DNA of 64,000 nucleotides from Lysobacter firmicutimachus (lineage in GTDB: Bacteria; Pseudomonadota; Gammaproteobacteria; Xanthomonadales; Xanthomonadaceae): assembly GCF_037027445.1 (NCBI RefSeq), contig NZ_JBANDL010000002.1, positions 4,312,001 through 4,376,000 of the forward strand. Direction: 5' to 3'. Made by a program: the position numbers and the translations under genes. Shown here one piece after another: positions 2,346 to 34,084 of the stretch (positions are counted from its first letter, which is position 1; every line of letters begins with the position of its first letter). Below the pieces are notes generated by a model that worked only from the letters and a program-made list of their open reading frames with translations, ran no database searches and had not been told where the DNA came from.

Positions 2346-5300
2346 TCAAGCCTCCGCCGGCACCTTGACCTTGAACCAGGCCGCGTACAGCGCCGGCAGG
2401 AACAGCAGGGTCAACAGCGTCGCGACCAGCAGGCCGCCCATGATCGCCACCGCCATCGGCCCGAAGAAGGCGCTGCGCGACAGCGGAATCATCGCCAAGA
2501 TCGCCGCCAGCGCGGTCAGCACGATCGGCCGGAAGCGGCGCACGGTCGCGTCTACTATCGCCTTCCACGGTTCGTGGCCCTCGCTGCGGTCCTGTTCGAT
2601 CTGATCGACCAGGATCACCGAGTTGCGCATGATCATGCCGGCCAGGGCGATCGTGCCGAGCATGGCGACGAAGCCGAACGGCACCCGGAACACCAGCAGG
2701 AACAAGGTCACGCCGATCAGGCCCAGCGGCGCGGTCAGCAGTACCATGAAGCTGCGCGAGAAGCTGCGCAGCTGCAGCATCAGCAGGGTGAACACCGCGA
2801 ACAGGAACAGCGGCATGCCGGCGTTGATCGACTTCTGCCCGCGCGCGGAGTCCTCGACGCTGCCGCCGATGTCGATCGAGTAGCCGTACGGCAGCTGCGC
2901 GCGCAACCCGTCCAGGGTCGGCGAGATCTGCGCCATTGCGCTGGACGGCTGGGTACCGTCGTAGATGTCGGCGCGCACGGTCATGGTCGGCAGGCGATCG
3001 CGGTGCCAGATGATGCCTTCCTCGAAACCGTAATCCAGGGTCGCGACCTGGGTCAGCGGCACGCTGCGGCCGTTGCTCGTCGGCACCATCAGGCTGCCGA
3101 GCATGTCCAGCTGCAAGCGCTCCTGTTCGGGACCGCGCAGCAGCATCTCGATCAGTTCGTTGCTCTCGCGGTAGGTGCTGATGTGCGAGCCCGACAGCGA
3201 ACTGGACAGGAACTGCGACAGCTGCGCCGAGCTGATGCCGAGCGCACGCGCGCGCTCCTGGTCGACCTGCAGGCGCACGACCTTGTTCGGCTCGTCCCAA
3301 TCCAGGTTGACGTTGGCCACGTGCGGGTTGGCGCGGATCTTCTCGCGCACCTGGTAGGCGATCTTGCGCACCTGGTCGATGTGCTCGCCGGAAACGCGGA
3401 ACTGCACCGGGTAGCCGACCGGCGGGCCGTTCTCCAGCCGGGTCACGCGCAACTGCAGCTCGGGGAAGCGCGGCGCCACGTCCTCGATGACCCACTTGCG
3501 CAGGGTTTCGCGCGCTTCCAGATCCTTGGGCATCAGCACGAACTGGGCGAAGTTGGCCGCCGGCAGCTGCTGGTCCAGCGGCAGGTAGAAGCGCGGCGAA
3601 CCGGTGCCGACATAAGCCACGTAGTTGGACAGATCCTTGCGCTGCTTGAGCATGGCTTCCAGGCGCTGGGCCTGGACGGCGGTCTGGCGCAGCGAGCTGC
3701 CTTCGGCCAGCTCCATGTCGACCATCAGCTCGGGGCGCACCGAGTCGGGGAAGAACTGCTGCGGCACGAAGCGGAACATGAAGATCGAGCCGATGAAGGC
3801 GGCGATGGTGATCGCGATGACCAGCCAGCGCCGGCGCACGCACCAAGTCACCCAGCGGCGGAAGCTCACGTAGAACTTGGACTCGTAGGGGTCGTGGACG
3901 TGGCCGTCGATCGGCGGCTTGGGCGCCAGCACGCTGGCGAACATCGGCAGGCGCCGCGCCAGCGCGCTGCGCGCGTCGCGCCAGCGCGCGGCCGGCGAAC
4001 CCGGCTTGGGCGGCGCCGCGGCGTGGCCGTAGTCCGGCAGCAGCTTGTCGCCGAGGAAGGGGATGAAGGCCACCGCGGCGATCCACGACACCAACAGGGC
4101 GATGGTCACCACCTGGAACAGCGAACGGGTGTACTCGCCGGTGCTCGAGGCCGCGGTCGCGATCGGCAGGAAGCCGGCGGCGGTGATCAGGGTGCCGGTC
4201 AGCATCGGGAAGGCGGTGCTGTCCCAGGCGAAAGCGGCCGCGCGCAGGCGATCGAAGCCCTGCTCCATTTTGATCGCCATCATTTCCACGGCGATGATCG
4301 CGTCGTCGACCAGCAGGCCCAGCGCCAGCACCAGCGCGCCGAGCGAGATCTTGTGCAGGCCGACGCCGAAGAAGTCCATCACCGCGAAGGTCATCGCCAG
4401 CACCAGCGGGATCGACAGCGCGACCACCAGGCCGGTGCGCAGGCCGAGCGAGAAGAAGCTGACCAGCAGCACGATCGCGACCGCCTCGGCGAGCACGCGC
4501 ACGAATTCGCCGACCGATTCCTCGACCGCGGCCGGCTGGTCGGCGACCTTGCGCAGTTGCATGCCCGCCGGCAAGGTCTTCTGCAGGCGCGCGAACTCGC
4601 CTTCCAGGGTCTTGCCGAGCTTGAGGATGTCGCCGCCCTGCTTCATCGACACGCCGATGCCGATCGCGTCCTCGCCCATGAAGCGCATGCGCGGCTGCGG
4701 CGGATCGGAGAAGCCGCGCCGCACCTCGGCCACGTCGCCGAGGCGGAAGGTGCGGTCGCCGACCCGGATCGGGAAGTCTCGGATCTGCTCGACCGAGGTG
4801 AACTGGCCGCCGACGCGGATCGGCACGCGGCTGGTCGGAGTCTCGAAGAAACCCGCCGAGACCAGCGCGTTCTGCTGGTTCAGCGCGTCCTGCACCGCCT
4901 GCGCCGGGACGCCGAGGGTGGACAGTTTCACGTTCGACAGCTCGACCCAGATCTTTTCGTCCTGGACCCCGAACAGCTCGATCTTGCCCACGTCGGTCTG
5001 GCTCTGCAGCGCCAGCTGCACGCGCTCGGCATAGTCCTTGAGCACGGCGTAGTCGAAGCCGGGCCCGGTCAGGGCGTAGATGTTGCCGAAGGTGTCGCCG
5101 AACTCGTCGTTGAAGAACGGGCCGATCGCGTCGCTTGGCAAAGTCGGGCGAATGTCGCCGATCTTCTTGCGCACCTGGTACCACAGCGGCGGGATGTCCT
5201 TGGAGCGCATCGCGTCGCCGGCGACGAACATCACCTGCGATTCGCCGGCGCGCGAGTACGAGCGGATGTACTCGTACTGGCCGGTTTCCATCAGCTTCTT

Positions 5301-5510
5301 CTCGATCCGCTCGGTGACCTGGCGCGAGACTTCCTCGGCGGTGGCGCCGGGCCACAGCGTGCGCACCACCATGACCTTGAAGGTGAAGGCCGGATCTTCG
5401 CTGCGCCCCAGGCGCAGGTAGGACATGGCGCCGGCGATCGCCAGCACCAGCATCGCGTAGATGATCAGGCTGCGATGGCGCAGCGCCCACTCGGAGAGGT
5501 TGAAACGCAT
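2346..5510 (-). CDS. RND efflux permease (AcrB/HAE1-like inner-membrane pump)
   Basis: Proton-driven pump of a tripartite RND system that would export toxic compounds through an adaptor and an outer-membrane channel. At 1054 residues it has the usual permease length. The sequence shows the duplicated RND plan: an N-terminal membrane helix (about residues 14-31), a large periplasmic loop, a helix bundle containing GLLVDDAIIAVEMM (about residues 400-415, the conserved charged Asp pair), then a second half with the same plan. The adaptor gene lies 129 bp upstream on the same strand, and a TetR regulator diverges from that. No outer-membrane partner is encoded in this operon; the nearby TolC (8402-9826) is a plausible one by inference. 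The substrate cannot be read from sequence. Confidence 0.93.
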   Translation of the reverse strand: MRFNLSEWALRHRSLIIYAMLVLAIAGAMSYLRLGRSEDPAFTFKVMVVRTLWPGATAEEVSRQVTERIEKKLMETGQYEYIRSYSRAGESQVMFVAGDAMRSKDIPPLWYQVRKKIGDIRPTLPSDAIGPFFNDEFGDTFGNIYALTGPGFDYAVLKDYAERVQLALQSQTDVGKIELFGVQDEKIWVELSNVKLSTLGVPAQAVQDALNQQNALVSAGFFETPTSRVPIRVGGQFTSVEQIRDFPIRVGDRTFRLGDVAEVRRGFSDPPQPRMRFMGEDAIGIGVSMKQGGDILKLGKTLEGEFARLQKTLPAGMQLRKVADQPAAVEESVGEFVRVLAEAVAIVLLVSFFSLGLRTGLVVALSIPLVLAMTFAVMDFFGVGLHKISLGALVLALGLLVDDAIIAVEMMAIKMEQGFDRLRAAAFAWDSTAFPMLTGTLITAAGFLPIATAASSTGEYTRSLFQVVTIALLVSWIAAVAFIPFLGDKLLPDYGHAAAPPKPGSPAARWRDARSALARRLPMFASVLAPKPPIDGHVHDPYESKFYVSFRRWVTWCVRRRWLVIAITIAAFIGSIFMFRFVPQQFFPDSVRPELMVDMELAEGSSLRQTAVQAQRLEAMLKQRKDLSNYVAYVGTGSPRFYLPLDQQLPAANFAQFVLMPKDLEARETLRKWVIEDVAPRFPELQLRVTRLENGPPVGYPVQFRVSGEHIDQVRKIAYQVREKIRANPHVANVNLDWDEPNKVVRLQVDQERARALGISSAQLSQFLSSSLSGSHISTYRESNELIEMLLRGPEQERLQLDMLGSLMVPTSNGRSVPLTQVATLDYGFEEGIIWHRDRLPTMTVRADIYDGTQPSSAMAQISPTLDGLRAQLPYGYSIDIGGSVEDSARGQKSINAGMPLFLFAVFTLLMLQLRSFSRSFMVLLTAPLGLIGVTLFLLVFRVPFGFVAMLGTIALAGMIMRNSVILVDQIEQDRSEGHEPWKAIVDATVRRFRPIVLTALAAILAMIPLSRSAFFGPMAVAIMGGLLVATLLTLLFLPALYAAWFKVKVPAEA

Positions 5511-5639
5511 ACGCTGGGCTCGCTTCGTTCAACGGCCGCCGCGCGGGACGCGGCGGCGGGATCTGGAGGGCGCCGGCGGACCGGCGCGCGAGAAAGTCGC
5601 GCGGTCGCGATCGCGGCGCCTGGAGGCGCCGCGACGCGC

Positions 5640-6758
5640 TCAGCGCGCGACCGGGTGGTTGTCGCGGTCGACCGGCTGCACTTTCTGGCCGTCGCGCAGC
5701 AGATGGCCGCCGGCGGCGACCACCCAGTCCTGCGCGCCCAGGCCCGACAGCACCGGCACGCTCTGCGCGCCGTAAGGGCCGGTGTGGATGGGCTTGAGCT
5801 TGACCGTGCCGCTGCGCGGGTCGGCGACGAACACCGCGCTGCCGCCGGCGGCGGTGCGTTGCAGCGCCGAGAGCGGCACGCTGAGGCCGGCCGAAACGGC
5901 GCTGGGCAGATAGATGCGCGCGCTCTGGCCGAGTTCGAGCGTGCCGGCGGGCGCATCGACGCTGACCCGCGCCGCATAAGTGCGCGAGGCCGGGTCGGCC
6001 GCCGGCGCGACTTCGCGCACCCGCGCCGGCCAACGCTTGCCGGGTTGCGACCACAATTCGACCAGGACGTCCTGGCCGGGCTTGAAGGTGGCGATCGCGC
6101 CTTCCGGCACCGCGAAGGCGACTTCGCGCACGCCGTCGGCGGCGAGCGCGAACACCTGCTGGCCGGCGGCCACGACCTGGCCGGCCTCGGCGCTGCGCGA
6201 GGCGATCACGCCGGCGCTGGGCGCGCGCAGATGGGTGTAGGCGGACTGGTTGCGGGCGACGTCGAGATTGGCGCGGGCGGCGTTGACCTGGCCCTGCGCG
6301 GCCTTCGCCGCCGCGTCCTGGGCGTCCATCGCCGAGCGACTGACCAGTTGGTCCTTGGCCAGCTGCGCGTAGCGCACCTGATCGGCGCGGGCGCGGCCGT
6401 AATCGGCTTCGGCCGCGGCCAATTGGGCCTGGGCGGCGCGCGCCTGGGCCTCGAGATCGCCGGCATCGAGCACCGCCAGCACCTGGCCGGCGGCGACGTG
6501 GGCGCCGACATCGACCTTGCGCTCGATCAGCTTGCCGCCGACCCGGAACGACAGCGGGCTTTCCTCGCGGGCGCGCACTTCGCCGGCGAAGGCCGAGACG
6601 CCGTTCGCGGCGGCGCCCGGACGGGTCACCAACACCGGACGCGCGGTTTCGGCCTGCGGCGCGGCCTTGCTGCAGGCCGTCAGGGACAGCGTCGCGGCCA
6701 GGGCCGCGCCGAGCAGCGCCGGGGCGGCGGGCTTGGCGGAAAAAATCCGGTGACGCAT
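5640..6758 (-). CDS. RND efflux periplasmic adaptor (HlyD/AcrA-like lipoprotein)
   Basis: Membrane fusion protein linking the RND permease to an outer-membrane channel. The N-terminus is a lipoprotein signal ending in LSLTAC, so the mature protein should be lipid-anchored. A lipoyl-like segment (residues about 55-85), an Ala/Gln-rich alpha-hairpin (about 90-160) and beta-barrel segments follow in the usual order. Start choice: ATG at 6758 has GAGG 9 bases upstream and puts the signal peptide directly at the N-terminus; an ATG five codons earlier (6773) is the alternative. It is first in the operon with the permease and shares a short divergent promoter region with the TetR gene. Confidence 0.9.
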   Translation of the reverse strand: MRHRIFSAKPAAPALLGAALAATLSLTACSKAAPQAETARPVLVTRPGAAANGVSAFAGEVRAREESPLSFRVGGKLIERKVDVGAHVAAGQVLAVLDAGDLEAQARAAQAQLAAAEADYGRARADQVRYAQLAKDQLVSRSAMDAQDAAAKAAQGQVNAARANLDVARNQSAYTHLRAPSAGVIASRSAEAGQVVAAGQQVFALAADGVREVAFAVPEGAIATFKPGQDVLVELWSQPGKRWPARVREVAPAADPASRTYAARVSVDAPAGTLELGQSARIYLPSAVSAGLSVPLSALQRTAAGGSAVFVADPRSGTVKLKPIHTGPYGAQSVPVLSGLGAQDWVVAAGGHLLRDGQKVQPVDRDNHPVAR

Positions 6759-11558: not shown

Positions 11559-12485
11559 ATGGCCGATACCGCCCTGCCCCTGCGTCCGTCCCTGCTTTCG
11601 CCGCGCCTGTGGCCGATGTGGCTGGCCCTGGCCGGCATGTGCCTGGGCGCGCGCCTGCCGTGGGGCCTGCAACGCCTGCTCGGCGGCTGGATCGGTGCGT
11701 TCGCCCTGCGCGTGGCGGGCACCCGCCGACGCGCGGCGCAGATCAATCTGGCGCTGTGCTTCCCGGAAAAGAGCGAGGCCGAACGCGCCGCGCTGCTGCG
11801 CGAAAGCTTCCGCGACCTCGGCATCGGCTTCTTCGAATTCGCCCGCGCCTGGTGGGGCTCGGTCGCGCCGATGCGGCGCACGGTGCGGATCGAGGGCCTG
11901 GAGCGGCTCGACGAAGTCCGCGCCGCCGGGCGCGGCGTGCTGATGGTATCGGGCCATTTCATGACCCTGGAAATGTGCGGCCGGCTGATGTGCGAACACT
12001 TGCCGCTGGCCGGCATGTACCGCCGCCATCGCAACCCGGTCATGGAGTGGGCGGTCAAGCGCGGCCGCCTGCGCTACGCCAGCGCGATGTTCACCAACGA
12101 GGAAATCCGCCCGGCGATGCGCCACCTCAAGCAGGGCGGCTTCCTGTGGTACGCGCCCGACCAGGACATGCGCGGCAAGGACACGGTGTTCGCGCCGTTC
12201 TTCGGCGTGCAGGCCGCCACCATCACCGCCACCCACCAGTTCGCCCGCCTCAGCGGCTGCGCGGTGGTGCCGTTCTTCCACCGCCGCGAAGGCGCCGACT
12301 ACGTGCTGCGCCTCGGCGCGCCGCTGGCGGAGTTTCCTTCCGCCGACGCCACCGCCGACAGCGCCCGGGTCAACGCCCAGATCGAAGCCATGGTGCGGCA
12401 GGCGCCTAGCCAATACTTGTGGATCCACCGCCGCTTCAAGCGCCGGCCGGCAGGCGAGATCTCTCCCTACAAGAAACAGAAGTAA
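11559..12485 (+). CDS. Lipid A biosynthesis acyltransferase (LpxL/HtrB family)
   Basis: Inner-membrane acyltransferase that adds a secondary acyl chain to Kdo2-lipid IVA, using acyl-ACP. The catalytic HX4E motif is SGHFMTLE (His133, Glu138). Other conserved features are the early membrane helix, YRRHRNPVMEW and WYAPDQDMRGKD. The 308-residue length matches LpxL, LpxP and LpxM, and I cannot tell which chain it adds. It is divergent from waaA, whose product makes its substrate. Just after the stop there is a 7-bp stem hairpin (12486-12506) without a T tract. Confidence 0.92.
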   Translation: MADTALPLRPSLLSPRLWPMWLALAGMCLGARLPWGLQRLLGGWIGAFALRVAGTRRRAAQINLALCFPEKSEAERAALLRESFRDLGIGFFEFARAWWGSVAPMRRTVRIEGLERLDEVRAAGRGVLMVSGHFMTLEMCGRLMCEHLPLAGMYRRHRNPVMEWAVKRGRLRYASAMFTNEEIRPAMRHLKQGGFLWYAPDQDMRGKDTVFAPFFGVQAATITATHQFARLSGCAVVPFFHRREGADYVLRLGAPLAEFPSADATADSARVNAQIEAMVRQAPSQYLWIHRRFKRRPAGEISPYKKQK

Positions 12486-12558
12486 CCGGTTCGGGGCCGG
12501 AACCGGCGAAAGCCGCGCGTGCCGCCGCTGTTCGCTGTCTGCTATCGCCGACTCGCCG

Positions 12559-13908
12559 CTACTCGCTCCTGGGCTGAGCCAACAGGCTTCCCGCATACAA
12601 CGCCGCCAACAACAGCGTCAGCCCGCCCCAGAAGGTCGAATAGAACGCCAGGTGGGTGTTGAGCGGGAACACCGTCACCAGCAAGGCCAGCATAGCCGGA
12701 CGCGACGCCTCGCGCGCCCGCGCGTCGGCGAAGGCCCAGGCGCGCCAGGCCAGGGCGGCGCCGGCCAGCCACATCAGCAGGCCGAAGGCGCCGGTTTCGC
12801 TGAGCACTTCCAGCAGCAGCTGATGGGCGTGCAGGGCCGGGCCTTCGCCCCAGGAGGTCAGGCGACCGGGCTGCGGGTCGCAGGCCGGGAAGGCTTCGCG
12901 GAAACCGCGCGCGCCGACGCCGTTGACCGGATGCTCGCCGACCATGCACCACGCAGCGCGCCAGATCCGCGTGCGCCCGGACAAGGCGTTGTCGACGCCT
13001 TCGACGTCGGCGCTGACCACGTGCGCGGTGCGCGCCAGGCGCTCGTGCACCTGCGGCGAGACCCGGTCGAGCACGCCGATCGTCAGCACGCCGATCGCGA
13101 ACACGCCGAGCAGGCGCTTCCAGCCGAGCAGGCGCCAGCCCGACAGCAGCAGCACCAGGCCGTAGGTGATCCACGAAGCGCGCGAGCCGGCCAGGACCAC
13201 GACCACCCCGACCGCAGCCGCGGCCAGCAGCCAGCCGGCGCTGCCGAAGCGACGCCCGGCGGCGTAGAGCACGAACGGCGAGAAGCTGGCGATGACCTGG
13301 CCGAGCTTGAGGTTGCACGGACCGAGCACGCCGCTGAGACGGTCCGCGGCGGCGGTCTCGGCGGCGCTGCACATGCCGTGCCCGCTGATCGCCTGCTTGA
13401 GCGCGTCGATGCCGAAGAACAGCGGGCTGGTGCCGGCCACCCACTGGATCAGCGCGTCGACGGTCCAGACCGACAGGATGATCGCCAAGCCGCCGAAGGT
13501 GGTGCGGCGCCCCCGCGGCGAGGCCACGGCCGCGGCGACCAGCCACAGGAACGGCAGATAGCGCAGATCGACCGCGGCTTCGCGCAGGGCGCGGCCGGGA
13601 TCGACCGCATCGATCGCCGAGACCAGCTCGGGCAGCCAATACGCGGCGAACAGTACGCTGGTCAGGGCCCAGGCCGGGTCGCTGAGCAGCCGCGCGCCGG
13701 TGTTGAACCGCGCCAGCGCCAGCTTGACCAGCGCGGTCAGCGCGCCGAGGGTCAGCACGCCCTCGGCATAGCCGGGCGCGAACAGCAGCGCGACATAAGT
13801 CAGGATCCAGGCCGGCGCCCAGCGCCAGCCGACGATCGCATGGCGCGGCGCGGGCGCGCCGGGTTCAGCCGCGGTCGGCGCCATCGACGAGTTCGGCATA
13901 GACGGCAA
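12559..13908 (-). CDS. O-antigen ligase / Wzy-C family membrane protein
   Basis: Polytopic inner-membrane protein of the O-antigen ligase/polymerase family, about 449 residues with roughly a dozen hydrophobic segments. The signature region is the large periplasmic loop with SGRTRIWRAAW, HPVNGVGARGF and HAHQLLLEVLSETGAFGLL (about residues 300-380). It would join O-polysaccharide to lipid A-core or polymerise glycan; the exact acceptor is unknown. Start choice: TTG at 13908 has a perfect AGGAGG with a 6-base spacer; ATG codons at 13899 and 13884 lack one. It overlaps the end of the glycosyltransferase gene by 44 bp, pointing to translational coupling. Confidence 0.85.
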   Translation of the reverse strand: MPSMPNSSMAPTAAEPGAPAPRHAIVGWRWAPAWILTYVALLFAPGYAEGVLTLGALTALVKLALARFNTGARLLSDPAWALTSVLFAAYWLPELVSAIDAVDPGRALREAAVDLRYLPFLWLVAAAVASPRGRRTTFGGLAIILSVWTVDALIQWVAGTSPLFFGIDALKQAISGHGMCSAAETAAADRLSGVLGPCNLKLGQVIASFSPFVLYAAGRRFGSAGWLLAAAAVGVVVVLAGSRASWITYGLVLLLSGWRLLGWKRLLGVFAIGVLTIGVLDRVSPQVHERLARTAHVVSADVEGVDNALSGRTRIWRAAWCMVGEHPVNGVGARGFREAFPACDPQPGRLTSWGEGPALHAHQLLLEVLSETGAFGLLMWLAGAALAWRAWAFADARAREASRPAMLALLVTVFPLNTHLAFYSTFWGGLTLLLAALYAGSLLAQPRSE

Positions 13909-21928: not shown

Positions 21929-22546
21929 ATGCCCCGCTCCCGCTTCCCCCGCATCGCGCGCGCGGCCCACGTCCTGGCCTTGGGCTTGGCCATCGCCGCC
22001 TGCGCGCATGCCCCGACATCGACGTCCATCAAGGAGGACCCCATGAGCACCGCCGCCAGCGGCACAACCCAAGTCACCGGCGAAGACATCAGCCGCCGCA
22101 TGCTCAAGCTGATCGGCAGCCTGACGTCCAATGCCGACCTCAACGCCGACCACGTCCGCCGCCACACCGGCCTGGATGTCCAGCTCGCCGCCAACGGCGA
22201 CGGCTCCTTCGGCACCGGCGCGCAGCTGAACCCGGACTGGTCGTACAACCTCTACGTCACCCGCCCGGCCGGCGAACAGAAGAACAAGCTGATCTTCGAC
22301 TTCGCCCGCACTGGCAGCCAGGACGCGCCGATGACTCCGGTCTGCGGCCTGGATTTCGACCACTACGCGCGCGAGCTCAAGACCATGGGCTTCCAGGGCG
22401 ATGCCAGCTACGCCGAGCACGGCCGCCTGGACCACTGGAATTTCAGCCGCACCGGTCTGTCGCTGCAGATCTTCGTCGAGGGCGAGTCCAGCGAATCGCC
22501 GGCCAAGATCGGCCACCACTGCGTCAAGACGCTCACCATCGAATAA
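21929..22546 (+). CDS. Putative T4SS immunity lipoprotein (X-Tfi-like), partner of the downstream effector
   Basis: A 205-residue predicted lipoprotein. The N-terminus is a signal peptide with lipobox AIAAC (Cys25), which would anchor it in the periplasm. The rest has no family I recognise; it contains several Cys (for example VCGLDF and HHCVKT). It ends 15 bp before a gene encoding an XVIPCD-type effector. In Xanthomonas and Lysobacter, effectors of the killing type IV system are usually paired with an upstream periplasmic lipoprotein immunity protein, so that role is inferred from context. GGAGGAG precedes the ATG. An internal ATG at 22043 has a perfect AAGGAGG 5 bases upstream and would give a cytoplasmic form without the signal. 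Confidence 0.7.
   Translation: MPRSRFPRIARAAHVLALGLAIAACAHAPTSTSIKEDPMSTAASGTTQVTGEDISRRMLKLIGSLTSNADLNADHVRRHTGLDVQLAANGDGSFGTGAQLNPDWSYNLYVTRPAGEQKNKLIFDFARTGSQDAPMTPVCGLDFDHYARELKTMGFQGDASYAEHGRLDHWNFSRTGLSLQIFVEGESSESPAKIGHHCVKTLTIE
22031..22045 (+). promoter_or_regulatory. Strong internal ribosome-binding site and second start codon
   Basis: AAGGAGG at 22031-22037 precedes an in-frame ATG at 22043 by 5 bases. Use of this site would yield a 167-residue protein lacking the lipoprotein signal. The upstream start at 21929 also has a good site, so both forms could be made. Confidence 0.6.
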
Positions 22547-22561
22547 GGCAAGGAGGCCGTC

Positions 22562-24016
22562 ATGCCCGCCAAGATCAGTCCCGAGCTGCAGAAGCTGCTC
22601 GACGAATTCGCCAAACAGCCCGGCGTCAGCGCCGACGCCGCGGCCAATCTCAAAACCACCATCGAAGGCTCGCCCGCGCTGTCCAAGCAGCTCGACGACG
22701 CCATCGCCGGCGGCCACCTGAAGTCGTTCAAGCCGCTGACCGACCCCAACGCGGGCGGCGCCTACAACGGCAAGGAACAGGCCATGCTGTTGCCGATCAA
22801 GGGCCTGGAGAAAGCGCCCGCCGGCACCTACGACGCCGGCAACATGACCTTCGTGCTCGGCCACGAGGTCCAGCACGGCTTCTACCGCACCGATCGCGAC
22901 AAGGCGATCCAGACCTTCGCCACCGAAGCCACCGCACTGTCCAAGACCGTCGCCGACAAGCACGACTACACCGCCTCGGTCGGCAAGGTGATCCAGGCCG
23001 ATCGCGACAACGAGGCCAAGGCCCACATCGCCGGTTGGAACGCGTTGGTCGGCAACGTGCGCGAAACCAATCCCAAGGCCACCCTCGCCGACGTGTACGC
23101 CAAGTCGCCCGGCCGCGCCGGCGATTTCATCGACCGCACCGGCACCGCGCCGAACTTCAACTACGCGTTGAAGGCCGGGCTGACCGTCGAGGCGGACCTG
23201 TCGATGAAGATGAGCGACGACAACGTCAAGTCGATGGGCAAGTACTACTTCGACATGCCGGCGGCGCAGGCGCGCCTGGGTCACAACGGCAATTCGGACT
23301 ACGCCAACTACTACGGCGCGTCCTACATGAGCTTCATCAGCCAGCTCGAGCATGCGCACGGCAAGACCGCCAAGGGCGGCAAGCCGGAAGTGCATCTCAA
23401 CATGACCCAGCTCAAGCTCAACGAAAGCCTGATGGAGCAGAACGGCATCGACCTGGGCGCCAATTCGGCCGGTCGCCAGCCTTACTACGACACCAGCGGC
23501 AATCCGCCCAAGCTGGGTCATTTCGACCACACCAAGACCACCCACACCCACGTCAACATCCGCAACGCGCCGCTGGACGCGCTCAACGAGCTGCAGGGCG
23601 ACCCGCATGCGCACGAGCACGGCAAGCTCGACCCGCGCCACGCCGAACACCCGGATCACCGCTTGTTCCGCGGCATCCTCGACAAGGTGCAGGGCGAGTA
23701 CGCGCGCCACGGCGGCAGCCTGCCGGAACGCGACGCCGAACGCCTGGCCGCCGGCCTGGCGCTGGAGAGCAAGCGCAACCACCTGTCCAGCCCGGATCAC
23801 CTGGTGCTCAGCGTCGACCCCACCACCAAGGAAATCGGCAAGACCGCGTTCCTGGTCCAGGGCGACCCGACCAACCCCTCGCACCTGCGGGTGGGCGTGT
23901 CGTTGCAGCAGACGCCGCCGACCGAAGACGCGTTCCGCCAGCTCGATGCGCTGAACCAGCAGCAATCGCAGACCCCGCAGGCGCAGCAGCAACACCAGCA
24001 CCGGGCCATGCCGTAG
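22562..24016 (+). CDS. Putative type IV secretion effector: HExxH metallopeptidase-like, XVIPCD C-terminus
   Basis: A 484-residue protein without a signal peptide. The N-terminal half contains LGHEVQHGFYRTDRD, an HExxH zinc-protease motif (His101, Glu102, His105). The C-terminal 130 residues (from about 355) resemble the XVIPCD recruitment domain of Xanthomonadaceae T4SS effectors: an EHPDHRLFRGILDKV segment, DAERLAAGLALESKR, SPDHLVLSVD, AFLVQGDP and a Gln-rich tail. Such proteins are injected into rival bacteria via the VirD4 coupling protein. AAGGAGG sits 5 bases before the ATG, and the upstream lipoprotein gene is the likely immunity partner. No T4SS structural gene is in the window. The target (peptidoglycan or protein) is unknown. 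Confidence 0.75.
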   Translation: MPAKISPELQKLLDEFAKQPGVSADAAANLKTTIEGSPALSKQLDDAIAGGHLKSFKPLTDPNAGGAYNGKEQAMLLPIKGLEKAPAGTYDAGNMTFVLGHEVQHGFYRTDRDKAIQTFATEATALSKTVADKHDYTASVGKVIQADRDNEAKAHIAGWNALVGNVRETNPKATLADVYAKSPGRAGDFIDRTGTAPNFNYALKAGLTVEADLSMKMSDDNVKSMGKYYFDMPAAQARLGHNGNSDYANYYGASYMSFISQLEHAHGKTAKGGKPEVHLNMTQLKLNESLMEQNGIDLGANSAGRQPYYDTSGNPPKLGHFDHTKTTHTHVNIRNAPLDALNELQGDPHAHEHGKLDPRHAEHPDHRLFRGILDKVQGEYARHGGSLPERDAERLAAGLALESKRNHLSSPDHLVLSVDPTTKEIGKTAFLVQGDPTNPSHLRVGVSLQQTPPTEDAFRQLDALNQQQSQTPQAQQQHQHRAMP

Positions 24017-24250: not shown

Positions 24251-27200
24251 ATGGGCAATCGGGTCTTTCTGTATCTGTGCACGGAAACCGAGGCCGCACA
24301 AGGCGGCGGCCGGCCGTTCGCCGAGGCCAAGAACCATTTCCCGCCGCTGTGGCAGCTGTTGCTCGCCGACGGCCGCGAGGGGCCGGCCAACGTCGCGCAG
24401 CGGCTGCCGTTCCTGGACACCGACACCGGCAATCTGATCGGCGACGCGGCTGCCGCCCGCGATCGCTTCTCCCTGCTGGAACGCTACGTCGTCGGCCATC
24501 CTCAACTGGACCGCATCCCCGGACTGGCGCTGCAGTTCGAAGCGTTCCGCCGCTACCTGGACGAAGAAGCGGCCCTGGTCCGGGCCGGCGCCGCCGATCC
24601 CGACGCGCCGCTGTGGTTCTCGGCCGATCTGGACGAACTGTCCTGGCTCGACGGCGACATCGACGGCTTCGTCGAGCGCATGGCCGCGCAGTGCGGCGCG
24701 TTCTGGCGCGAACTGCAGGACGCGATCGCGGCCGACCGCGCCGGGCGCGTGGCCGAACTGCTGGAAGTCCAGGGCCCGGCGTGGCATGCGGGCGAGTGGA
24801 GTTCGTGGCTGTGGCAGTTCGGCTTCGGCGGCCTCGACCATCCCTACTTCGACCAGCCCGAACGGCCACGCAGGATCGCGTTCGAAGCTTTCGAACACGA
24901 CCACTACGCCGACCAGGCCGCGCTGGGCCACGACCGCATCCTGTTCGAGGCCGACGGTCTGCGCGGCCTGCGCCGGCGCGGCGAACACGACGAGCACGAC
25001 CGGCTGCAACCCGGCGAAGTGCTCATTCCCGCGCAATGGCAGGACATCCTCGACGCCGGCCATGAACAGCGCGAACTGTACTGGGTCGCGCGCCAGGACC
25101 GTTACGGCCTGCTGGAGCGCCATGCCGACGGCCGCGTGCGACTGCTGCTGGAACCGGTGCTGAGCGAAGTCGACGAGTTCCAGGCGCTCGCCCCCTGCGC
25201 CCTGGCCGCGGTGCGGATCGGCGAACGCGCCGGCCTGCTGCAGGACGACGGCGGCTGGCGGCTGGCGCCGGAGGCGGCGTCGCCGCCGGCGCAGGCGATC
25301 GGCCGCTTCAGCCACGGCCGGGCATGCGCTCGCAGCGGCGAGCGCGTCGGCTATCTGGATACCGCCGGACACTGGTGCGTGCCGCCGGTCTACGACGCCG
25401 GCGGCGACTTCACCGGCGAGGGCTATGTGGAGGTGCGCCGCAAGGGCCGGTTCGGCCTGATCGACCGCGACGGCGCGACGGCGCTGGAACCGCAGTACGA
25501 CGCGTTGGAATGGAACGGCGACGCGCGCGCCTATCTGGCCCGGCGCGGCCGCCAATGCGGCTGGCTGCATGCCGACGGCCGCGCCTGGGTCGCGACGGAA
25601 TGGGACGAGATCGAGGCCATGCCCGCGGGCACGGCGATCCGGGTGCGGCGCAAGGGCCGCTACGGCCTGCTCGACTGGTCGGGACGCGAGTGCGTCGCGG
25701 CGGCCTATCGCGCGCTCGACCTCGACCACGAAACCTACGACGCCGACGCGCCGGTGCAGCGCGAGGCGCTGCGCTACGTGGTGCGCACCGGCGGTCGCGA
25801 CGGCGGCCTGGGCATGATCGACGCCGACGGCCGCGAACTGATACCGCCGGTGTACGACGAGTTGTCGGCCTTCGCGGCCTGGATCGAAACCGGGCCGGGC
25901 GAAACGGCGGACGCGAGCGGCGAAGCCTGGCGCACGCCCCCGCACCTGATCGCGCTGCGGCGCGAAGTCGACGGCCGCGGACGACGCGGCGCCTGGGACT
26001 TGCGCTTGGGCCGCGAAGTCGTGCCCTGCGCGCACGATCGCGTGTTCGCGGCCGCCTTGTACCGCGACGGCGCCGACATCGTGGTCGGCTATCTCGTCGC
26101 CGACGAGCTGCCGGGCGCGGAGCACGAAGACGAGGGCTACAGCCGCCAGCGCATGCAAGTGCTGCGTGCCGACGGCAGCGCGCTGCACTCCGGCTACGCC
26201 TGGATCGGCGTCGCGCGGCCGCTGGACTGGAGCGAGCTGTCGGAGATCGCACAGCGTCTGTATCGCGCCTGGTCCGCGGACGACGCCGTCGAGGCGGTGC
26301 GCAGCGACGACGACGGTTTCGAATGGCTGCGCCGCGACGGCAGCCGTCGCGGCCATGTCGAGTGGCTGGCCGAGCGCTATGCGGCCGGCGACCGCGACGC
26401 CGCGTTGCGCTTGGCGCGTGAACTGCGCGACGGCTACGGCGTGGCCGCCGATCCGGTCGCGGCCCGGCGATGGATGGCGCGCGCGGCCGGCATCGCCGCC
26501 GACCCACCGGCACGCCGCCCCGGCCTGCTCGCGCGCTTGTTCGGCGCCGCCGACGCGCGCTGGTCGCCGGACGCAGCCGCCGCCGACGGCAGCGCCGATG
26601 CCATGGACGAATTGGCGGCGATGCTGATCGACGGCGTCGGCGGCGCGCCGGCGCCGGCGTTGGCCCGAGACTGGCTCGAGCACCTGCTCGACCGGGTCGC
26701 CCCGAATCACGCGCGCGCGCAGATCCGTCTCGGTCATTTGCTGCAGAACGGCATCGGCGGCGACGCCGACCCCGAACGCGCCTTGCGCCTGTTCGAGCGC
26801 GCCGCGGCTCAGGCCGAGCCGGATGCGCTGTACAACCTCGGTCACGCGCACGAGTTCGGCCTCGGCACCGCGATCGACCACGAGCGCGCGCTGGACCACT
26901 ATCGGCGCGCCGCCGAGATCGGCGACGGCGACGGCGCGCATCGCGCCGGGCTGGTCGCATTGCGCCTGGGCGCGCACGCCGGCGCCGACCGCGCCGCGGC
27001 CTGCGCCGAAGCCGCGCGCTGGCTGCGCCGTGCCGCCGAACACGACAGCTATGCCGGCGCGCACATCGCCGGCAGCGATCTTGCGGCGCTGCTGGTGCGC
27101 GGCGACGGCGTGGAGCGCGACGTCGACGAAGCCGAACGCCTGTGGCTGGCCGCCGCCGAGGGCGGGCATCGCGGCAGCATCGAACATTTGCTGGCGCTGT

Positions 27201-27265
27201 ACGGCGACCAGGACAGCGAGCGCCACGACCCCGAGCGCGCCGCCTATTGGCGCCAGCGCCGCTGA
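24251..27265 (+). CDS. Large WG-repeat and Sel1-repeat protein of unknown function
   Basis: A 1004-residue cytoplasmic-looking protein with no signal peptide. The N-terminal 330 residues are acidic, rich in Trp and Phe, and not recognised. Residues about 350-560 contain several WG-type beta repeats, for example RKGRFGLIDRDGATALEPQYD, RKGRYGLLDWSGRECVAAAY and GLGMIDADGRELIPPVYDE. The C-terminal part (about 800-990) has Sel1-like helical repeats such as ALYNLGHAHEFGLGTAIDHERAL. Both repeat types are protein-interaction scaffolds. GGGAG lies about 7 bases before the ATG. It follows the effector gene after a 234-bp gap holding tandem GGAACGAGGA units; whether they work together is unknown. Confidence 0.7.
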   Translation: MGNRVFLYLCTETEAAQGGGRPFAEAKNHFPPLWQLLLADGREGPANVAQRLPFLDTDTGNLIGDAAAARDRFSLLERYVVGHPQLDRIPGLALQFEAFRRYLDEEAALVRAGAADPDAPLWFSADLDELSWLDGDIDGFVERMAAQCGAFWRELQDAIAADRAGRVAELLEVQGPAWHAGEWSSWLWQFGFGGLDHPYFDQPERPRRIAFEAFEHDHYADQAALGHDRILFEADGLRGLRRRGEHDEHDRLQPGEVLIPAQWQDILDAGHEQRELYWVARQDRYGLLERHADGRVRLLLEPVLSEVDEFQALAPCALAAVRIGERAGLLQDDGGWRLAPEAASPPAQAIGRFSHGRACARSGERVGYLDTAGHWCVPPVYDAGGDFTGEGYVEVRRKGRFGLIDRDGATALEPQYDALEWNGDARAYLARRGRQCGWLHADGRAWVATEWDEIEAMPAGTAIRVRRKGRYGLLDWSGRECVAAAYRALDLDHETYDADAPVQREALRYVVRTGGRDGGLGMIDADGRELIPPVYDELSAFAAWIETGPGETADASGEAWRTPPHLIALRREVDGRGRRGAWDLRLGREVVPCAHDRVFAAALYRDGADIVVGYLVADELPGAEHEDEGYSRQRMQVLRADGSALHSGYAWIGVARPLDWSELSEIAQRLYRAWSADDAVEAVRSDDDGFEWLRRDGSRRGHVEWLAERYAAGDRDAALRLARELRDGYGVAADPVAARRWMARAAGIAADPPARRPGLLARLFGAADARWSPDAAAADGSADAMDELAAMLIDGVGGAPAPALARDWLEHLLDRVAPNHARAQIRLGHLLQNGIGGDADPERALRLFERAAAQAEPDALYNLGHAHEFGLGTAIDHERALDHYRRAAEIGDGDGAHRAGLVALRLGAHAGADRAAACAEAARWLRRAAEHDSYAGAHIAGSDLAALLVRGDGVERDVDEAERLWLAAAEGGHRGSIEHLLALYGDQDSERHDPERAAYWRQRR

Positions 27266-27280
27266 CCGCGGCGCAGACGT

Positions 27281-29260
27281 TCAGCGTCCGCCGCGGCGGC
27301 GGTACTCGGCCAGGTCGATGCGCAGGATCCGGCGCAGTTCCAATATCGCCTGCGGCGTCTCCTGCACGCTGTGGCCGGAAACGATCGCCTTCTCCGATTG
27401 GGCGCCGTCCAGGTGCGCGCTGGCGTAAGGCACCACGCCGTCGCTGGACTGCGCCAGCGGCACCGTCGGATCGCGCCAACCCACGACGGTGTGGAACGGC
27501 AGTCCGGGTTCCAGGCTCAGGCCGGCGGTGCTGCGCATGAACAAGGAATGCGGACTGAGATCGTCCGGCCCGGTCGGCGGACGGCCCTTGCGGAAACCGA
27601 TCTTCTGCAACTGGTCCTGGTCGACTTGGCTGCGCTGGATCAGTTCGGCGGTGTCGCGCAGCACGTCGAACGGCAACCGGATCAGCTTGCGCACCATGCG
27701 CAGCGGCCAGCCGTCGGTGACCACCGCGCCGCGATGCGGCGACGCCAGGAACACGGCGCGGCCGAACTGCGGCATCGGCCGGAACACGGTCAACTCACGC
27801 ACCAGCGGGTCCTCGCGCAGGCGCTGCGCGGTGGCGGCGTCGAAGTTGCTCAGGCTGGCTTCGCGCACCTGGTCGCCGCTGTCGCTGAGCAGCAGGCGCG
27901 AGATGACCCCGCCCATGCTGTGCCCGACCAGCACCGCATCGCGGCTGGCGACGTCGTCGCCCTGCGGATCGTAGTGGGCGAAGGTGCGCTGCAAGGCCGA
28001 CTCGATCGCCGCGCGGTTGCCGAGGATGCTCAGATTGGTCGGATAGAACACCTGCCACAACTGGTAGTGGCGGCGCAGGGTTTCGTCGCCCAGCACTTCG
28101 TTGGCCAGGTTGACCCAGGCCTCCGGGCTGCTGGCCAGTCCGTGCACCAGCACGATCACGCGCTTGTCCGGATCGTAGGGCTGGTTGAGATAGACCCGCG
28201 GCGAGAACGCGCGCGCCTGCTTCGGCCGCAGCAGGCTGGACAGGCTCAACCGCGCCAGTTCCGAACGCGCCAGCCAGATGCCGTAGGCGGCCGAGTAGTT
28301 GGCCGCCAGCGGCACGCTGCGCCCGGCTATGGTCTCGCTCTCGATCCGGAACGGGTTGTACACGTCCATGCGCGCGCTGCGGTCGGCGAGCACCGCATCG
28401 AGCGAGTCGCCGTCGAAACGCAAGGTCGCGGTGACCGGCAGGTAGCGCGTATCCCGATAAGGCAGGCTCGCGGCCGCAGGCCCCTGCCCCGCAGCCGCCG
28501 AGCGGCGCGGGAACACCGCGACCAGCGAAGTGCCGAAGCCGTCGCGGCGATAGACCGCACGCAGGTTGTCGAAGCCCAGCGTATCAGAAGCCAGCAACGC
28601 CTCCGGTTGCTGCTCGATCTCGGAGGATTCGTAACCGTGCAGGGCGACGCTCAGCTCCAACCCGCCGACCTGTACCGGGCTGGCGCCGACCCGGCCGCGG
28701 CTGGCTTCGAACGCGGCCTGGGCGACCACGTCGACGGCGCGGTTGTAGAAACGCAGCACCCGCTCCTGGCGCGCCTCGAACACGCGCTGCTCCGGCGTGC
28801 GCGGGGTCAGGAACAGATAGGCGTAGGCGTAGCGCGCCGCCTCGATCGCGGCGCGGGTGCGCGGATCGGCGGCCACGTCGGGCACCGCGGCCGCCGTCGG
28901 CGCGGCCGGCTTGCGCGCCAGCCCGGCGCTCTCCGCCGCCTGCGTCACCGACGCCGGCAGGGCGTTCATGCGCAACAACTGCAATTCCGCCGAGGCCGCC
29001 AGCCAATCCTCGACCGCAGCCAGCGTGCGCAGTTGGCCGATGCACGGCTCCGGCTCGCGCGCGCAGGTCTCCGCGTCCAGCCCGGCCGATCCCAGCACGC
29101 TCGCCGCCGATGCGCTCAGGCGGCCGCCGCTGAGCGCATCGATATTGCGCTCCACCGCGACGTCGCCGAAGGCGCGCTCCTTGACCTTGACCACGGCGCA
29201 ACCGCTGCCGAGCAGGACGGCGAGGCCGAGCGCGAGCCAGGCGGCGGGGGATCGGGACAT
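27281..29260 (-). CDS. Alpha/beta-hydrolase lipoprotein (lipase/PGAP1-like)
   Basis: A 659-residue predicted lipoprotein (signal ending LLGSGCAVV) with a C-terminal alpha/beta-hydrolase domain. The oxyanion segment VLVHGLASSPEAW is near residue 370 and the nucleophile elbow GHSMGG near residue 445. A C-terminal segment SDGVVPYASAHL and a late SGHSVQ give candidate Asp and His positions for the triad. The N-terminal 330 residues are helical and then beta-rich and not recognised. The likely reaction is ester hydrolysis of lipids in the envelope; the substrate is unknown. The start at 29260 is chosen because it begins the signal peptide. It converges with the WG-repeat gene with only 15 bp between them. 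Confidence 0.8.
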   Translation of the reverse strand: MSRSPAAWLALGLAVLLGSGCAVVKVKERAFGDVAVERNIDALSGGRLSASAASVLGSAGLDAETCAREPEPCIGQLRTLAAVEDWLAASAELQLLRMNALPASVTQAAESAGLARKPAAPTAAAVPDVAADPRTRAAIEAARYAYAYLFLTPRTPEQRVFEARQERVLRFYNRAVDVVAQAAFEASRGRVGASPVQVGGLELSVALHGYESSEIEQQPEALLASDTLGFDNLRAVYRRDGFGTSLVAVFPRRSAAAGQGPAAASLPYRDTRYLPVTATLRFDGDSLDAVLADRSARMDVYNPFRIESETIAGRSVPLAANYSAAYGIWLARSELARLSLSSLLRPKQARAFSPRVYLNQPYDPDKRVIVLVHGLASSPEAWVNLANEVLGDETLRRHYQLWQVFYPTNLSILGNRAAIESALQRTFAHYDPQGDDVASRDAVLVGHSMGGVISRLLLSDSGDQVREASLSNFDAATAQRLREDPLVRELTVFRPMPQFGRAVFLASPHRGAVVTDGWPLRMVRKLIRLPFDVLRDTAELIQRSQVDQDQLQKIGFRKGRPPTGPDDLSPHSLFMRSTAGLSLEPGLPFHTVVGWRDPTVPLAQSSDGVVPYASAHLDGAQSEKAIVSGHSVQETPQAILELRRILRIDLAEYRRRGGR

Positions 29261-29614
29261 GGCGGATTCCGGACGGGGGCGAAGGCCATTGTCCGGGGCC
29301 CGCGGGGCGCGAGTAAATCTCCCGATCGCGAACGGCCCGGGCATCCATCGCCGCGGCTGCGCTCCGGCGACGCCCACCGCCGCCCCTCCGGCGCACAGTC
29401 CGGTCCGCGCCACCGGTCGGCGTCGGGCACGGAACGAGACCGCCCAGGTCCGTGGGGCAGCCACGCCGAGGCCTAGCGCGAGCTTCGTTCCGTGCGCGCA
29501 CGCGCGCAGGCCCGCCGCGCTGGGAGCGAACGGCGGGCGTCTTCACAGCCGGCGCGCAGCGGCGTTCAACCGTATCGAGCCGGCCATCCTTTCTCCGCAC
29601 CCGAGGCGCTCCTC
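29261..29614. other. Divergent promoter region with a spaced inverted repeat
   Basis: No gene is seen. An 11-bp perfect inverted repeat, GCACGGAACGA (29427-29437) and TCGTTCCGTGC (29485-29495), is separated by 47 bp. It could be a looped regulatory site between the hydrolase and the three-gene cassette. No clear -35/-10 pair is visible. Confidence 0.35.
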
Positions 29615-29977
29615 ATGCATCCGTCCGGAAATCCCGCAGAGTCCGGCCAGCCCGAGCTGCACGTCCAACACATCGCCTGCACCAACAACGCGTGGTTCTC
29701 CCTGCGTTTCGTCGTCCAGCGCGTGGAAGGCGATCGGGTGATCGGTCAGGCGCACAGGACCAGCGCATTTCCGGCCGGCCAGACCCGCAACGTGGATCTG
29801 GCCACCCTGCGTTTCCACGGAAAAGCGCTGGACATAGGCGACCGCGTGCGCCTGCGCGTCGGCGCGATCGGCGGCGGCCGGCGCGACGGCCCTTCGGTGG
29901 CTTACGCGCCCAACGGCCACACCGCCGCATTCAGTGTGCGCGGCACCACCCAGCGCTTCTCGATCAACCGCCTCTGA
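29615..29977 (+). CDS. Small beta-rich protein, first gene of the MACPF-like cassette
   Basis: A 120-residue protein with alternating beta-strand patterns and no signal peptide. Characteristic parts are HIACTNNAWFSLRFVVQ near the start, an AGQTRNVDLATLRFHGKALD segment, a glycine turn (GAIGGGRRDG) and a C-terminal GTTQRFSINRL. I do not recognise a named family; the pattern suggests a compact beta-sandwich. It is 11 bp upstream of the next gene and therefore co-transcribed. The ATG at 29615 is chosen because the upstream 41 codons of the frame are arginine-rich and non-native. It could be the soluble or binding component of a two- or three-part toxin; this is inference from position. Confidence 0.6.
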   Translation: MHPSGNPAESGQPELHVQHIACTNNAWFSLRFVVQRVEGDRVIGQAHRTSAFPAGQTRNVDLATLRFHGKALDIGDRVRLRVGAIGGGRRDGPSVAYAPNGHTAAFSVRGTTQRFSINRL

Positions 29978-29988
29978 GGCGCCCGGCC

Positions 29989-30729
29989 ATGGCCGCGTCC
30001 CACGCTCTCGACGGCCGATCCGCCGATTGGCTGCGCGATCACGAGCAACTGTTCGTCCGCTTCGGCCTCAACACCGAGGACGCCGACGCCCGCCGCCGCA
30101 ATCGCGGCGCGCAGGTCCATATGCTCGCCGACGCGCGCTTGCCGCAGATCGCGCCGGACCGTGTGTTTCCGAACGTGGTCGCGGTCACCCGCGGCGCGGC
30201 GCTGTCGATCCAGATCCGTTCGCGTTCGCCGCTCGGCTTCGGCTTCCGCGTCGCCACCGACGCCGGACCGGTGGTGGACCGGTTGTACGCGGTCGACCGG
30301 CCCGACGCGCAGGGCTTGCGCAGCGTCACCGTCAGCCGGTTCCAACGCGACCAACGCCTGATCGTCGTCGATCCGATGAGCGCATGGCTGAGCGATTCGC
30401 GCGATCGCGATGCGCTACAGCAACTGTGGCGCTGCGAAATCTCGACCTGGGCGGTGCGCCAGTTTCTCGACCCGATCAGCGGGCGGGTCTACACCGCCAA
30501 CCGTCCACGCTTCGCGGCGACGGCGGAGGCCGGGCCGTTCGAGACCCGCGGCGGCCAAGCGCTGGACGCGGCGGACGGCGCGCGGGTCCGGGTCAACCCC
30601 GGCGTGGTGCGCGGCGAGGGCGAAGCCGGGCAGCGCTTCGGACGCATCCAGGTGCAGGCCGAAGACGATCCCGAGCGCCAGCGCATCGGCTCGCTGCACG
30701 TGCATTTCTTCGTCCTCGGCCTCGACTGA
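29989..30729 (+). CDS. Unknown protein, middle gene of the MACPF-like cassette
   Basis: A 246-residue protein of unknown family with no signal peptide or membrane helix. It is mixed alpha/beta with strands such as SIQIRSRSPLGFGFRVATD and a C-terminal GSLHVHFFVLGLD. It starts 11 bp after the small beta-rich protein and ends 57 bp before the MACPF-like gene, so the three look like one operon. The conserved context, not a motif, is the only clue to function. Confidence 0.6.
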   Translation: MAASHALDGRSADWLRDHEQLFVRFGLNTEDADARRRNRGAQVHMLADARLPQIAPDRVFPNVVAVTRGAALSIQIRSRSPLGFGFRVATDAGPVVDRLYAVDRPDAQGLRSVTVSRFQRDQRLIVVDPMSAWLSDSRDRDALQQLWRCEISTWAVRQFLDPISGRVYTANRPRFAATAEAGPFETRGGQALDAADGARVRVNPGVVRGEGEAGQRFGRIQVQAEDDPERQRIGSLHVHFFVLGLD

Positions 30730-30786
30730 CCGTCGTTCGTCCCGCGCGCCGCCGCGCTTCGCACATCGCGCACCCGAGAGGTCCGC

Positions 30787-32211
30787 ATGCTCGTCACCAT
30801 CGCATTCGCCGGCGAACCCGACCGCGACATCGTCCTGCGTCTGGCGCCGGAGACCAGCCTGCTGCGGGTCCGCGAGCAACTCGCGGCCAAGGCCGGGATG
30901 CAGCCGGGCGAGCGCTTCCGCCTCGGCAGGGCCGGCCTGCATCCAACGCTCGAGGCCGAGACCACGGTCGCGCAAGCGATCGACAAGGACCAGACACTCA
31001 CGGTCCGGCCGGCGCAGACCAAACGCGCGGAATCCGCGGCCAAGACGCAGGCGCAAGCGCGTCCCGCCTTGCGCCCGACCGCACCGGAGGCACGCCCGGC
31101 CGAGGCGCGTTGGGGGCTGAGGAACGAGACCGACGCACCGGATCTGCTGCCGCAGTTGCAGGGCCGGCTGGCCGGGGTCAACGCGCGCACTCCGGACGAG
31201 TTCGCCGCGTTGCCGCTGGAGACGGTGCAGGCGCTGCTCGCCACGCGCCGGCTCGACCGCGGCCTGCGCTTCAGCGCCGACCTGGGCGACAGCGTGTTCG
31301 GCGCGCGTTCGCCGCGCTCGCCGGCGGTCTATCGGCACCCGCAGCGGCCGCCGCATTCGGGCGGCGTCTCGTTCACGTCGCGCGGGCGCCTCAGCGCCAC
31401 CGCCAGCCGGGTGCTGCACGAGTTGCATACCCGCAGCATCCACAACGCCAACGCCGGCGGCGGCGTCAACGGCTTCGGCCTGGGCGCGGATTTCCGCCGC
31501 GACCTCGAGCGCCTGCAGCGCAGCGAAGTCACCGCGATCCATCTGGTCGAGGAGACGATCGTCCCCAAGGTGGCGGTGACGCTGGACCCGGACCAGGATC
31601 TGGACGTCGCGCCCGAACTGGTCGAAGCGGTGGACGCCGCGCTGGCGGTGCGCGGCGGCCGGCGCAGCCAGTACCAGGCGCTGCACGAGCGCGTGTTCGC
31701 CGGGTTCGGCTATTTCTTCCCCTGCGAGACCCTGCTCGGCGGGGTGCGCATGCGCACGCTCAGCACGACCAGCGAGGATCTGCGCGAGCAGCAGCAGTTT
31801 CTGGCGGGCTTCGGCTTCGGCGCCGCCGCCAAGGACGTGCCGACCAGCCACGGTCCGGCCAGCGGCGACATCGGCTACGCGCGGTCCGAAAGCCGCCTGT
31901 CCAGGCACCGGCATATCCGCCAGCTTCGCCAACAGGACGTGCGCACGGTCGGCGGCCATCCGGCGCTGGGCCTGGCCGACGATCTGCTCCTGCAGTGGAT
32001 GGCCGGCCTGGATGCGGTGGAACTGTGGGCGGCCATCGGCCATCGCCGCCTGGTGCCGATCCTGCGCTTCCTGCCGCGCCGGCAGCGCGACCGGTGCGTC
32101 GGCGTGATCGAGCCGTTCGCCCGTTCCGACCTCACCGCGCGCTTCACCGTGCTGGACATGGCCGCCTACGTGGCGCCGTTCAACCGCGCGCTGCTCGACG
32201 AGCTGATGTAG
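30787..32211 (+). CDS. Putative MACPF-like pore-forming protein with ubiquitin-like N-terminus
   Basis: A 474-residue protein without a classical signal peptide. Residues 1-78 look like a beta-grasp/ubiquitin-like domain (LLRVREQLAAKAGMQPGERF, then an E-x-T turn and a final TLTVRP strand). The central region has a helix-strand order ending in FAGFGYFFPCETLLGGVRM (about residues 300-320). This resembles the MACPF signature, where a Y/W-G-T-H-F/Y-like box is followed by a GG strand. The layout resembles fungal MACPF-like proteins as I remember them. If correct it would oligomerise and pierce membranes. The key Thr-His of classical MACPF is replaced by Phe-Phe, so the call is tentative. GAGAG precedes the ATG. 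Confidence 0.5.
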   Translation: MLVTIAFAGEPDRDIVLRLAPETSLLRVREQLAAKAGMQPGERFRLGRAGLHPTLEAETTVAQAIDKDQTLTVRPAQTKRAESAAKTQAQARPALRPTAPEARPAEARWGLRNETDAPDLLPQLQGRLAGVNARTPDEFAALPLETVQALLATRRLDRGLRFSADLGDSVFGARSPRSPAVYRHPQRPPHSGGVSFTSRGRLSATASRVLHELHTRSIHNANAGGGVNGFGLGADFRRDLERLQRSEVTAIHLVEETIVPKVAVTLDPDQDLDVAPELVEAVDAALAVRGGRRSQYQALHERVFAGFGYFFPCETLLGGVRMRTLSTTSEDLREQQQFLAGFGFGAAAKDVPTSHGPASGDIGYARSESRLSRHRHIRQLRQQDVRTVGGHPALGLADDLLLQWMAGLDAVELWAAIGHRRLVPILRFLPRRQRDRCVGVIEPFARSDLTARFTVLDMAAYVAPFNRALLDELM

Positions 32212-32253
32212 CCGCCGCAACGCGTCGGGGCGGGCCGCGCCCGACGGCGCCGC

Positions 32254-32285
32254 AAAAAAAAGAACCCCGCCTCGCGGCGGGGTTC
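32254..32285 (-). terminator. Rho-independent terminator of groEL
   Basis: On the minus strand the stem GAACCCCGCC pairs with GGCGGGGTTC across a 4-base loop, followed by TTTTTTTT. It starts 28 bases after the groEL stop and also sits in the gap after the plus-strand MACPF-like gene. Confidence 0.93.
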
Positions 32286-32312
32286 CCGGTGTCGCTGCAC
32301 GTGGGGCGTGGA

Positions 32313-34084
<1,772 letters not shown>

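Follow-up and report, generated by a model that had tools for sequence, protein, structure and literature searches.

A three-gene cassette of Lysobacter firmicutimachus with a pleurotolysin B-like MACPF protein and a putative role in pore formation

What might three short, closely spaced genes beside groEL do together in Lysobacter firmicutimachus? We analyzed a stretch of 64,000 nucleotides (hereafter the window; GCF_037027445.1, NZ_JBANDL010000002.1, positions 4,312,001 to 4,376,000), which lies on contig 2 of a 5.32 Mb host assembly in 3 contigs, and concentrated on the cassette at 29615-32211. An earlier note, made from the letters alone, had described this as three plus-strand genes encoding proteins of 120, 246 and 474 amino acids (aa), the last of them a putative fungal-type MACPF-like pore-former. 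The open reading frames were confirmed, as were the gaps of 11 bp and 57 bp between them; we refer to them in order as g1 (29615-29977, +), g2 (29989-30729, +) and g3 (30787-32211, +). One measure speaks against them as genes: the asymmetry between codon positions is modest when the trio is set beside three relatives, and one comparison out of nine (g2 with L012) shows slightly more differences at position 2 than at position 1. On balance we lean towards regarding the trio as a split pore-former in which a headless g3 would supply the pore and have g2 as an obligate partner, with g1 serving optionally as a membrane adaptor.

g3 as a MACPF protein

By sequence comparison g3 is a member of the MACPF superfamily whose nearest relative among solved structures is pleurotolysin B, in keeping with the fungal-type affinity proposed in the earlier note. 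The window protein by itself matches nothing in Pfam, NCBIfam or the PDB sequences. Within its family of 15, 14 members match PF22693 ('Fungal MACPF-like domain') at E <= 1 (best 4.2e-10), the window protein being the only one that does not, and 5 match PF01823 (best 6e-6). A PF22693 scan of the window's own genome returned 0 matches, hence this model misses the window copy. The family profile (alignment A1) reaches pleurotolysin B in the PDB at E 1.8e-4. Two remote relatives strengthen the link: one in a Luteimonas-type genome (locus L037 in G070; PF22693 E 1.1e-14), the other on a plasmid of Janthinobacterium lividum (L071; PF22693 E 9.5e-9), where it is annotated as MAC/perforin. A joint profile that includes both (A9) finds pleurotolysin B at E 1.3e-20 and a two-row profile of the remote pair alone does so at 8.8e-20, while hhalign aligns this pair with the Lysobacteraceae family (probability 96.9, E 1.5e-10) from before the MACPF signature to near the C-terminus. 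Pleurotolysin B also stands in the top rows for the g3 structural model with Foldseek and VIA, the model having a mean confidence (pLDDT) of 49, too low for it alone to reveal a bent sheet with helical clusters.

The published MACPF signature, Y/F-G-X2-F/Y-X6-G-G (PMC9505663; this and the other sources cited are used as excerpts), is fitted by FGYFFPCETLLGG at residues 307-319 of g3 (31705-31743, +), the central segment in which the earlier note had placed it. The exact pattern is present in 15/15 rows of A1; it occurs in a single one of the 314 stop-to-stop frames of at least 100 aa in the window, namely that of g3, and arises in 8 of 20,000 shuffles of the protein. Neither remote relative (L037, L071) carries it in exact form.

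The MACPF domain occupies residues ~132-457 (31180-32157, +). It is preceded by a predicted ubiquitin-like domain (residues 1-78; 30787-31020, +) and by a Pro/Ala-rich linker (residues 79-108; 31021-31110, +; pLDDT 25-34), whose length varies between relatives in A1. The ubiquitin-like N-terminus had been proposed from its sequence pattern, and fold comparison now supports a predicted beta-grasp ubiquitin fold for these ~78 residues. No diglycine for conjugation is present in A1 where this domain ends; the linker comes next. At the other end, the hidden Markov model alignment to pleurotolysin B stops at residue 296 of 474 of the latter, ~35 residues short of the end of g3, whereas ~180 residues lie beyond the matched region in pleurotolysin B. 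Since g3 terminates so soon after this region, there is no space for a C-terminal membrane-recognition domain.

The combination sets g3 apart from the systems it most resembles. Pleurotolysin B, of the PF22693 type and paired with an aegerolysin, shares with it the MACPF core and signature, and in both cases a small protein with a beta sandwich, a predicted one in g1, is co-encoded with the MACPF protein; g3 differs in its ubiquitin-like N-terminus and in having no C-terminal domain. The bacterial proteins Mpf2Ba1, Plu-MACPF and Bth-MACPF likewise have a MACPF domain but, unlike g3, bring their own C-terminal beta-prism or other domains, and the excerpts that describe them mention no ubiquitin-like part (PMC10344926, PMC2954219).

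The small proteins g2 and g1

In every full g3 examined, the unvarying partner is g2. We searched 149 family-level and 20 genus-level genomes, the window being counted in both samples; g2 was found in 12/20 genus genomes, precisely those 12 with a full g3. This protein, represented by its open reading frame and 24 homologues, belongs to no known family: no match was found in Pfam, NCBIfam or PADLOC, and none of significance in the PDB. Profile matches to Rab1 were insignificant (E at least 0.19) and this candidate was rejected. The gene directly upstream of each remote MACPF gene (L037, L071) is a distant g2. That of J. lividum was recognized first by position and then by BLASTP (E 2e-21 against the G070 protein and 7e-5 against window g2, both single-pair values) and by hhalign, in which the g2 family and the remote pair align with a probability of 91.3 and E 9.4e-7. 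A ubiquitin-like N-terminus in the remote g2 proteins is hinted at weakly, with E-values of at least 0.53. We infer that g2 is a docking subunit.

The earlier note had cast g1, as a beta protein, in the part of the small binding partner, with aegerolysins as an example of such partners. Of this, the beta-rich character stands: g1 is modelled as a beta sandwich (pLDDT 83), and its best Foldseek match is domain 4 of the cholesterol-dependent cytolysins (CDCs), although a second structure aligner places that domain level with other beta sandwiches. The partnership as then worded does not, as the invariable partner is g2 and g1 often occurs without a pore gene. Nor is g1 an aegerolysin by profile. 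The aegerolysin model PF06355 has no match at E <= 5 in g1 and 19 relatives, aegerolysin chains are absent from the PDB matches of the g1 profiles, and none appears in the 50 structure rows listed for g1, which is not an exclusion; a PF06355 search of the 20 genus genomes was also without a match, the same search being silent on its controls too. An undecapeptide and a TL cholesterol-binding pair are features of CDC domain 4 (PMC7527733). The former is absent from the g1 sequence, and the position of the latter reads TQ in the window copy (residues 112-113) and TL in 17/22 rows of alignment A7. A profile match to tubulin chaperone C was likewise insignificant (E at least 0.19) and was set aside, and PHROGs gave one weak match to an unknown family (E 0.04). 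Judging from its model, g1 plausibly binds membranes.

Known systems resemble the trio in part. The pore domains of MACPF proteins and CDCs have a fold in common (PMC7527733), and the resemblance of the g1 model to domain 4 recalls the CDCs. Unlike in these, however, the g1 domain is encoded by its own gene, lacks the undecapeptide and, in the window copy, the TL pair, and g3 matches MACPF and not CDC profiles. Two-component CDC-like toxins of Bacteroidota are also co-encoded multi-component bacterial pore-formers, but in the excerpts used (PMC7527733, PMC11169675) their short component is a shortened relative of the long one, whereas g1 and g2 have no pore-domain match. AfIP-1A/1B of Alcaligenes combines a small, beta-rich bacterial protein with a larger co-encoded partner; there the small protein is an aegerolysin and the partner, according to the excerpt, has no relation to MACPF, which is the reverse of the trio (PMC5465095). 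Aegerolysin pairings, for their part, have no counterpart to g2, the uncharacterized third protein that is the constant partner here.

Every step that we propose for a split pore-former, from membrane binding to barrel insertion, is drawn from the MACPF family. Once released, g1 would take hold, alone or together with g2, of a target lipid or receptor. Docking of g2 would then load g3, which would oligomerize into a ring, and the unfolding of its two transmembrane-hairpin regions would create a beta barrel. In g3, the ubiquitin-like domain and the linker after it could dock to g2 or restrain premature assembly. By analogy, this division of labor would be that of aegerolysin and pleurotolysin B, but with other small proteins. 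The trio thus conceived would likely perforate other cells' membranes; our likeliest guess at the target is a eukaryote, be it fungus, nematode or protist.

Distribution of the cassette and competing readings

The earlier note had named a trio that never co-occurs elsewhere as a ground for refutation. The cassette recurs in other genomes, which removes that objection: a full g3 was found in 6/149 family-level genomes, 6/6 having g1, g2 and g3 in order, and the same order holds at genus level in 12/12 of the genomes whose g3 is full. Across the 16 loci compared, groEL is always on the downstream side (4.7 kb off in L035); the alpha/beta-hydrolase gene is on the upstream side in 13/16 (3.4 kb off in L010) and was not found near the cassette in L013, L014 and L035. 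Further afield, when 369 class genomes were searched with a g3 profile and 398 phylum genomes with a g2 profile, the window alone was recovered, so the pair is either rare or too diverged for such searches. PF22693 over the 398 phylum genomes gave 1 match, in G262, below the curated cut-off (300 bases read), with the controls unmatched. In a plasmid collection, the G070 g2 query retrieved nothing despite the distant g2 next to the Janthinobacterium MACPF gene, and the Janthinobacterium proteins and a Streptomyces g1 relative retrieved only themselves. Two matches were dropped as weak: one of g3 in G057 (E 8.5e-4, residues 21-118 only) and one of g1 in G133 (E 8.1e-4, not recovered by tblastn at 1e-3).

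The likelihoods that we attach to our reading and to its rivals overlap in part. The rival that survives best holds that g1 is functionally unrelated and that the g2-g3 pair works by itself, g2 being the subunit that binds the membrane. The remote loci L037 and L071, where g1 was not detected, speak for this, as does the coincidence of g2 and full g3 in 12/12 genomes; yet g1 is present in all 12 of these genus genomes and precedes g2 by just 13-25 bases (between matches, including the stop codon) at the 16 trio loci that were measured, that of Luteimonas among them, and we take this reading to be possible though rather unlikely.

These remote loci hold further genes. At L071 the diverged g2-MACPF pair (4286-6732) is carried by a 357-kb J. 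lividum plasmid, and the region also contains an integrase, a HipA-type toxin gene with its regulator, and an IS3 transposase. At L037 the distant g2-g3 pair has, just upstream of it, a gene for a possibly exported protein of 187 aa (12467-13027, -) to which Pfam offers no match.

A second rival takes g2-g3 to be the toxin pair and g1 to be either an immunity protein against the pore-former or its chaperone; where g2-g3 have been lost, any g1 still present would be an orphan immunity gene. The distribution of g1 is what lends this its appeal. Present in 18/20 genus genomes, g1 accompanies g2-g3 in 12 and lacks the full pair in 6 (G062, G015, G547, G548, G553 and G552). In these 6 it is always found at the same site, bounded by the alpha/beta hydrolase and groEL, and three of them carry two copies; none of the trio was found in G546 and G549. 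In G552, tblastn recovers a whole g1, then codons 1-24 of g2, followed by codons 372-467 of g3, a pattern that a single internal deletion would leave. Conversely, the fold of g1 is placed by Foldseek closest to a membrane-binding domain, and there are aegerolysins, too, that have no MACPF partner next to them (PMC9505663). At the remote g2-g3 loci, moreover, where an indispensable immunity gene should be present, no g1 was detected. The g1 relative of Streptomyces sp. NBC_01334 (L072 5893-6294, +) starts with an apparent signal peptide, as would suit a secreted binder; no MACPF gene is among the genes annotated within 6 kb of it, where annotation is incomplete. An immunity role for g1 is, on this evidence, doubtful.

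It is tempting to join these threads into a three-gene split toxin of MACPF/CDC type, with a ubiquitin-tagged headless pore, g2 as obligate loading partner and a domain-4-like gripper, g1, that is kept after loss of the pair as a decoy or shield against the pores of neighbors; we offer this fuller scheme tentatively and would not press it. In G547, a 436-aa open reading frame (L075 8383-9693, -) that has a hydrophobic stretch close to the N-terminus sits between g1 and groEL, in the place expected for g2-g3.

The route by which the proteins would leave the cell bears on the last rival. None has a strongly hydrophobic N-terminal segment, the best 12-residue Kyte-Doolittle means in the first 40 residues being 0.80 (g1), 0.26 (g2) and 1.22 (g3), and no signal peptide was seen. 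The XVIPCD domain of type IV secretion substrates is matched by none of the three, and PADLOC, Pfam and NCBIfam gave no usable match to the single window proteins. All are strongly basic, with isoelectric points of 11.4 (g1), 9.9 (g2) and 9.8 (g3), which may favor binding to acidic membranes. That the trio acts inside its producer, in regulated self-lysis or anti-phage suicide, would suit proteins that are basic, could be cytosolic and show no signal peptides, but is the least probable reading, given the absence of a PADLOC match, a chromosomal neighborhood on the groEL side that is constant in 16/16 loci, unlike a variable defense island, and the occurrence in secretomes of some fungal MACPFs without recognized signals (PMC9505663).

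Surroundings and significance of the cassette

In the window the cassette is flanked by an alpha/beta-hydrolase gene upstream and by groEL-groES downstream, both on the minus strand. In the interval that separates groEL from the trio, a terminator-like hairpin (32260-32287, -) is oriented to stop groEL transcription; terminator-like sites numbered 2 against 1.1 expected by chance, and a search of 29250-32400 yielded no promoter-like consensus. Further upstream, 21929-24013 (+) encodes a 484-aa protein that has an HEVQH motif and, at its C-terminus, an X-Tfes XVIPCD domain (PF20410, E 2.9e-23). It is likely a type IV secretion effector, and the 205-aa gene ahead of it, unmatched in Pfam, is possibly its immunity gene. 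Matches to this effector region, at 40-100% identity, lie upstream of the cassette in 11/16 compared loci, L077 holding a short piece only. A 1004-aa protein with WG and Sel1 repeats is encoded at 24251-27262 (+).

The bacterial MACPF proteins in the literature excerpted here bring their own C-terminal domains, and the fungal pleurotolysin B borrows an aegerolysin. Among the matches listed, the open-licence literature includes no paper on a Lysobacter MACPF, and a search that combined the two gave none. Should the trio work as proposed, it would represent another way of targeting a MACPF pore, and g2 would be a new partner family common to Lysobacteraceae and Janthinobacterium. Genomes with g1 only would then provide a natural set in which to test whether a binding subunit has turned into a shield. 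For Lysobacter, a genus studied for biocontrol, the cassette adds a candidate weapon.
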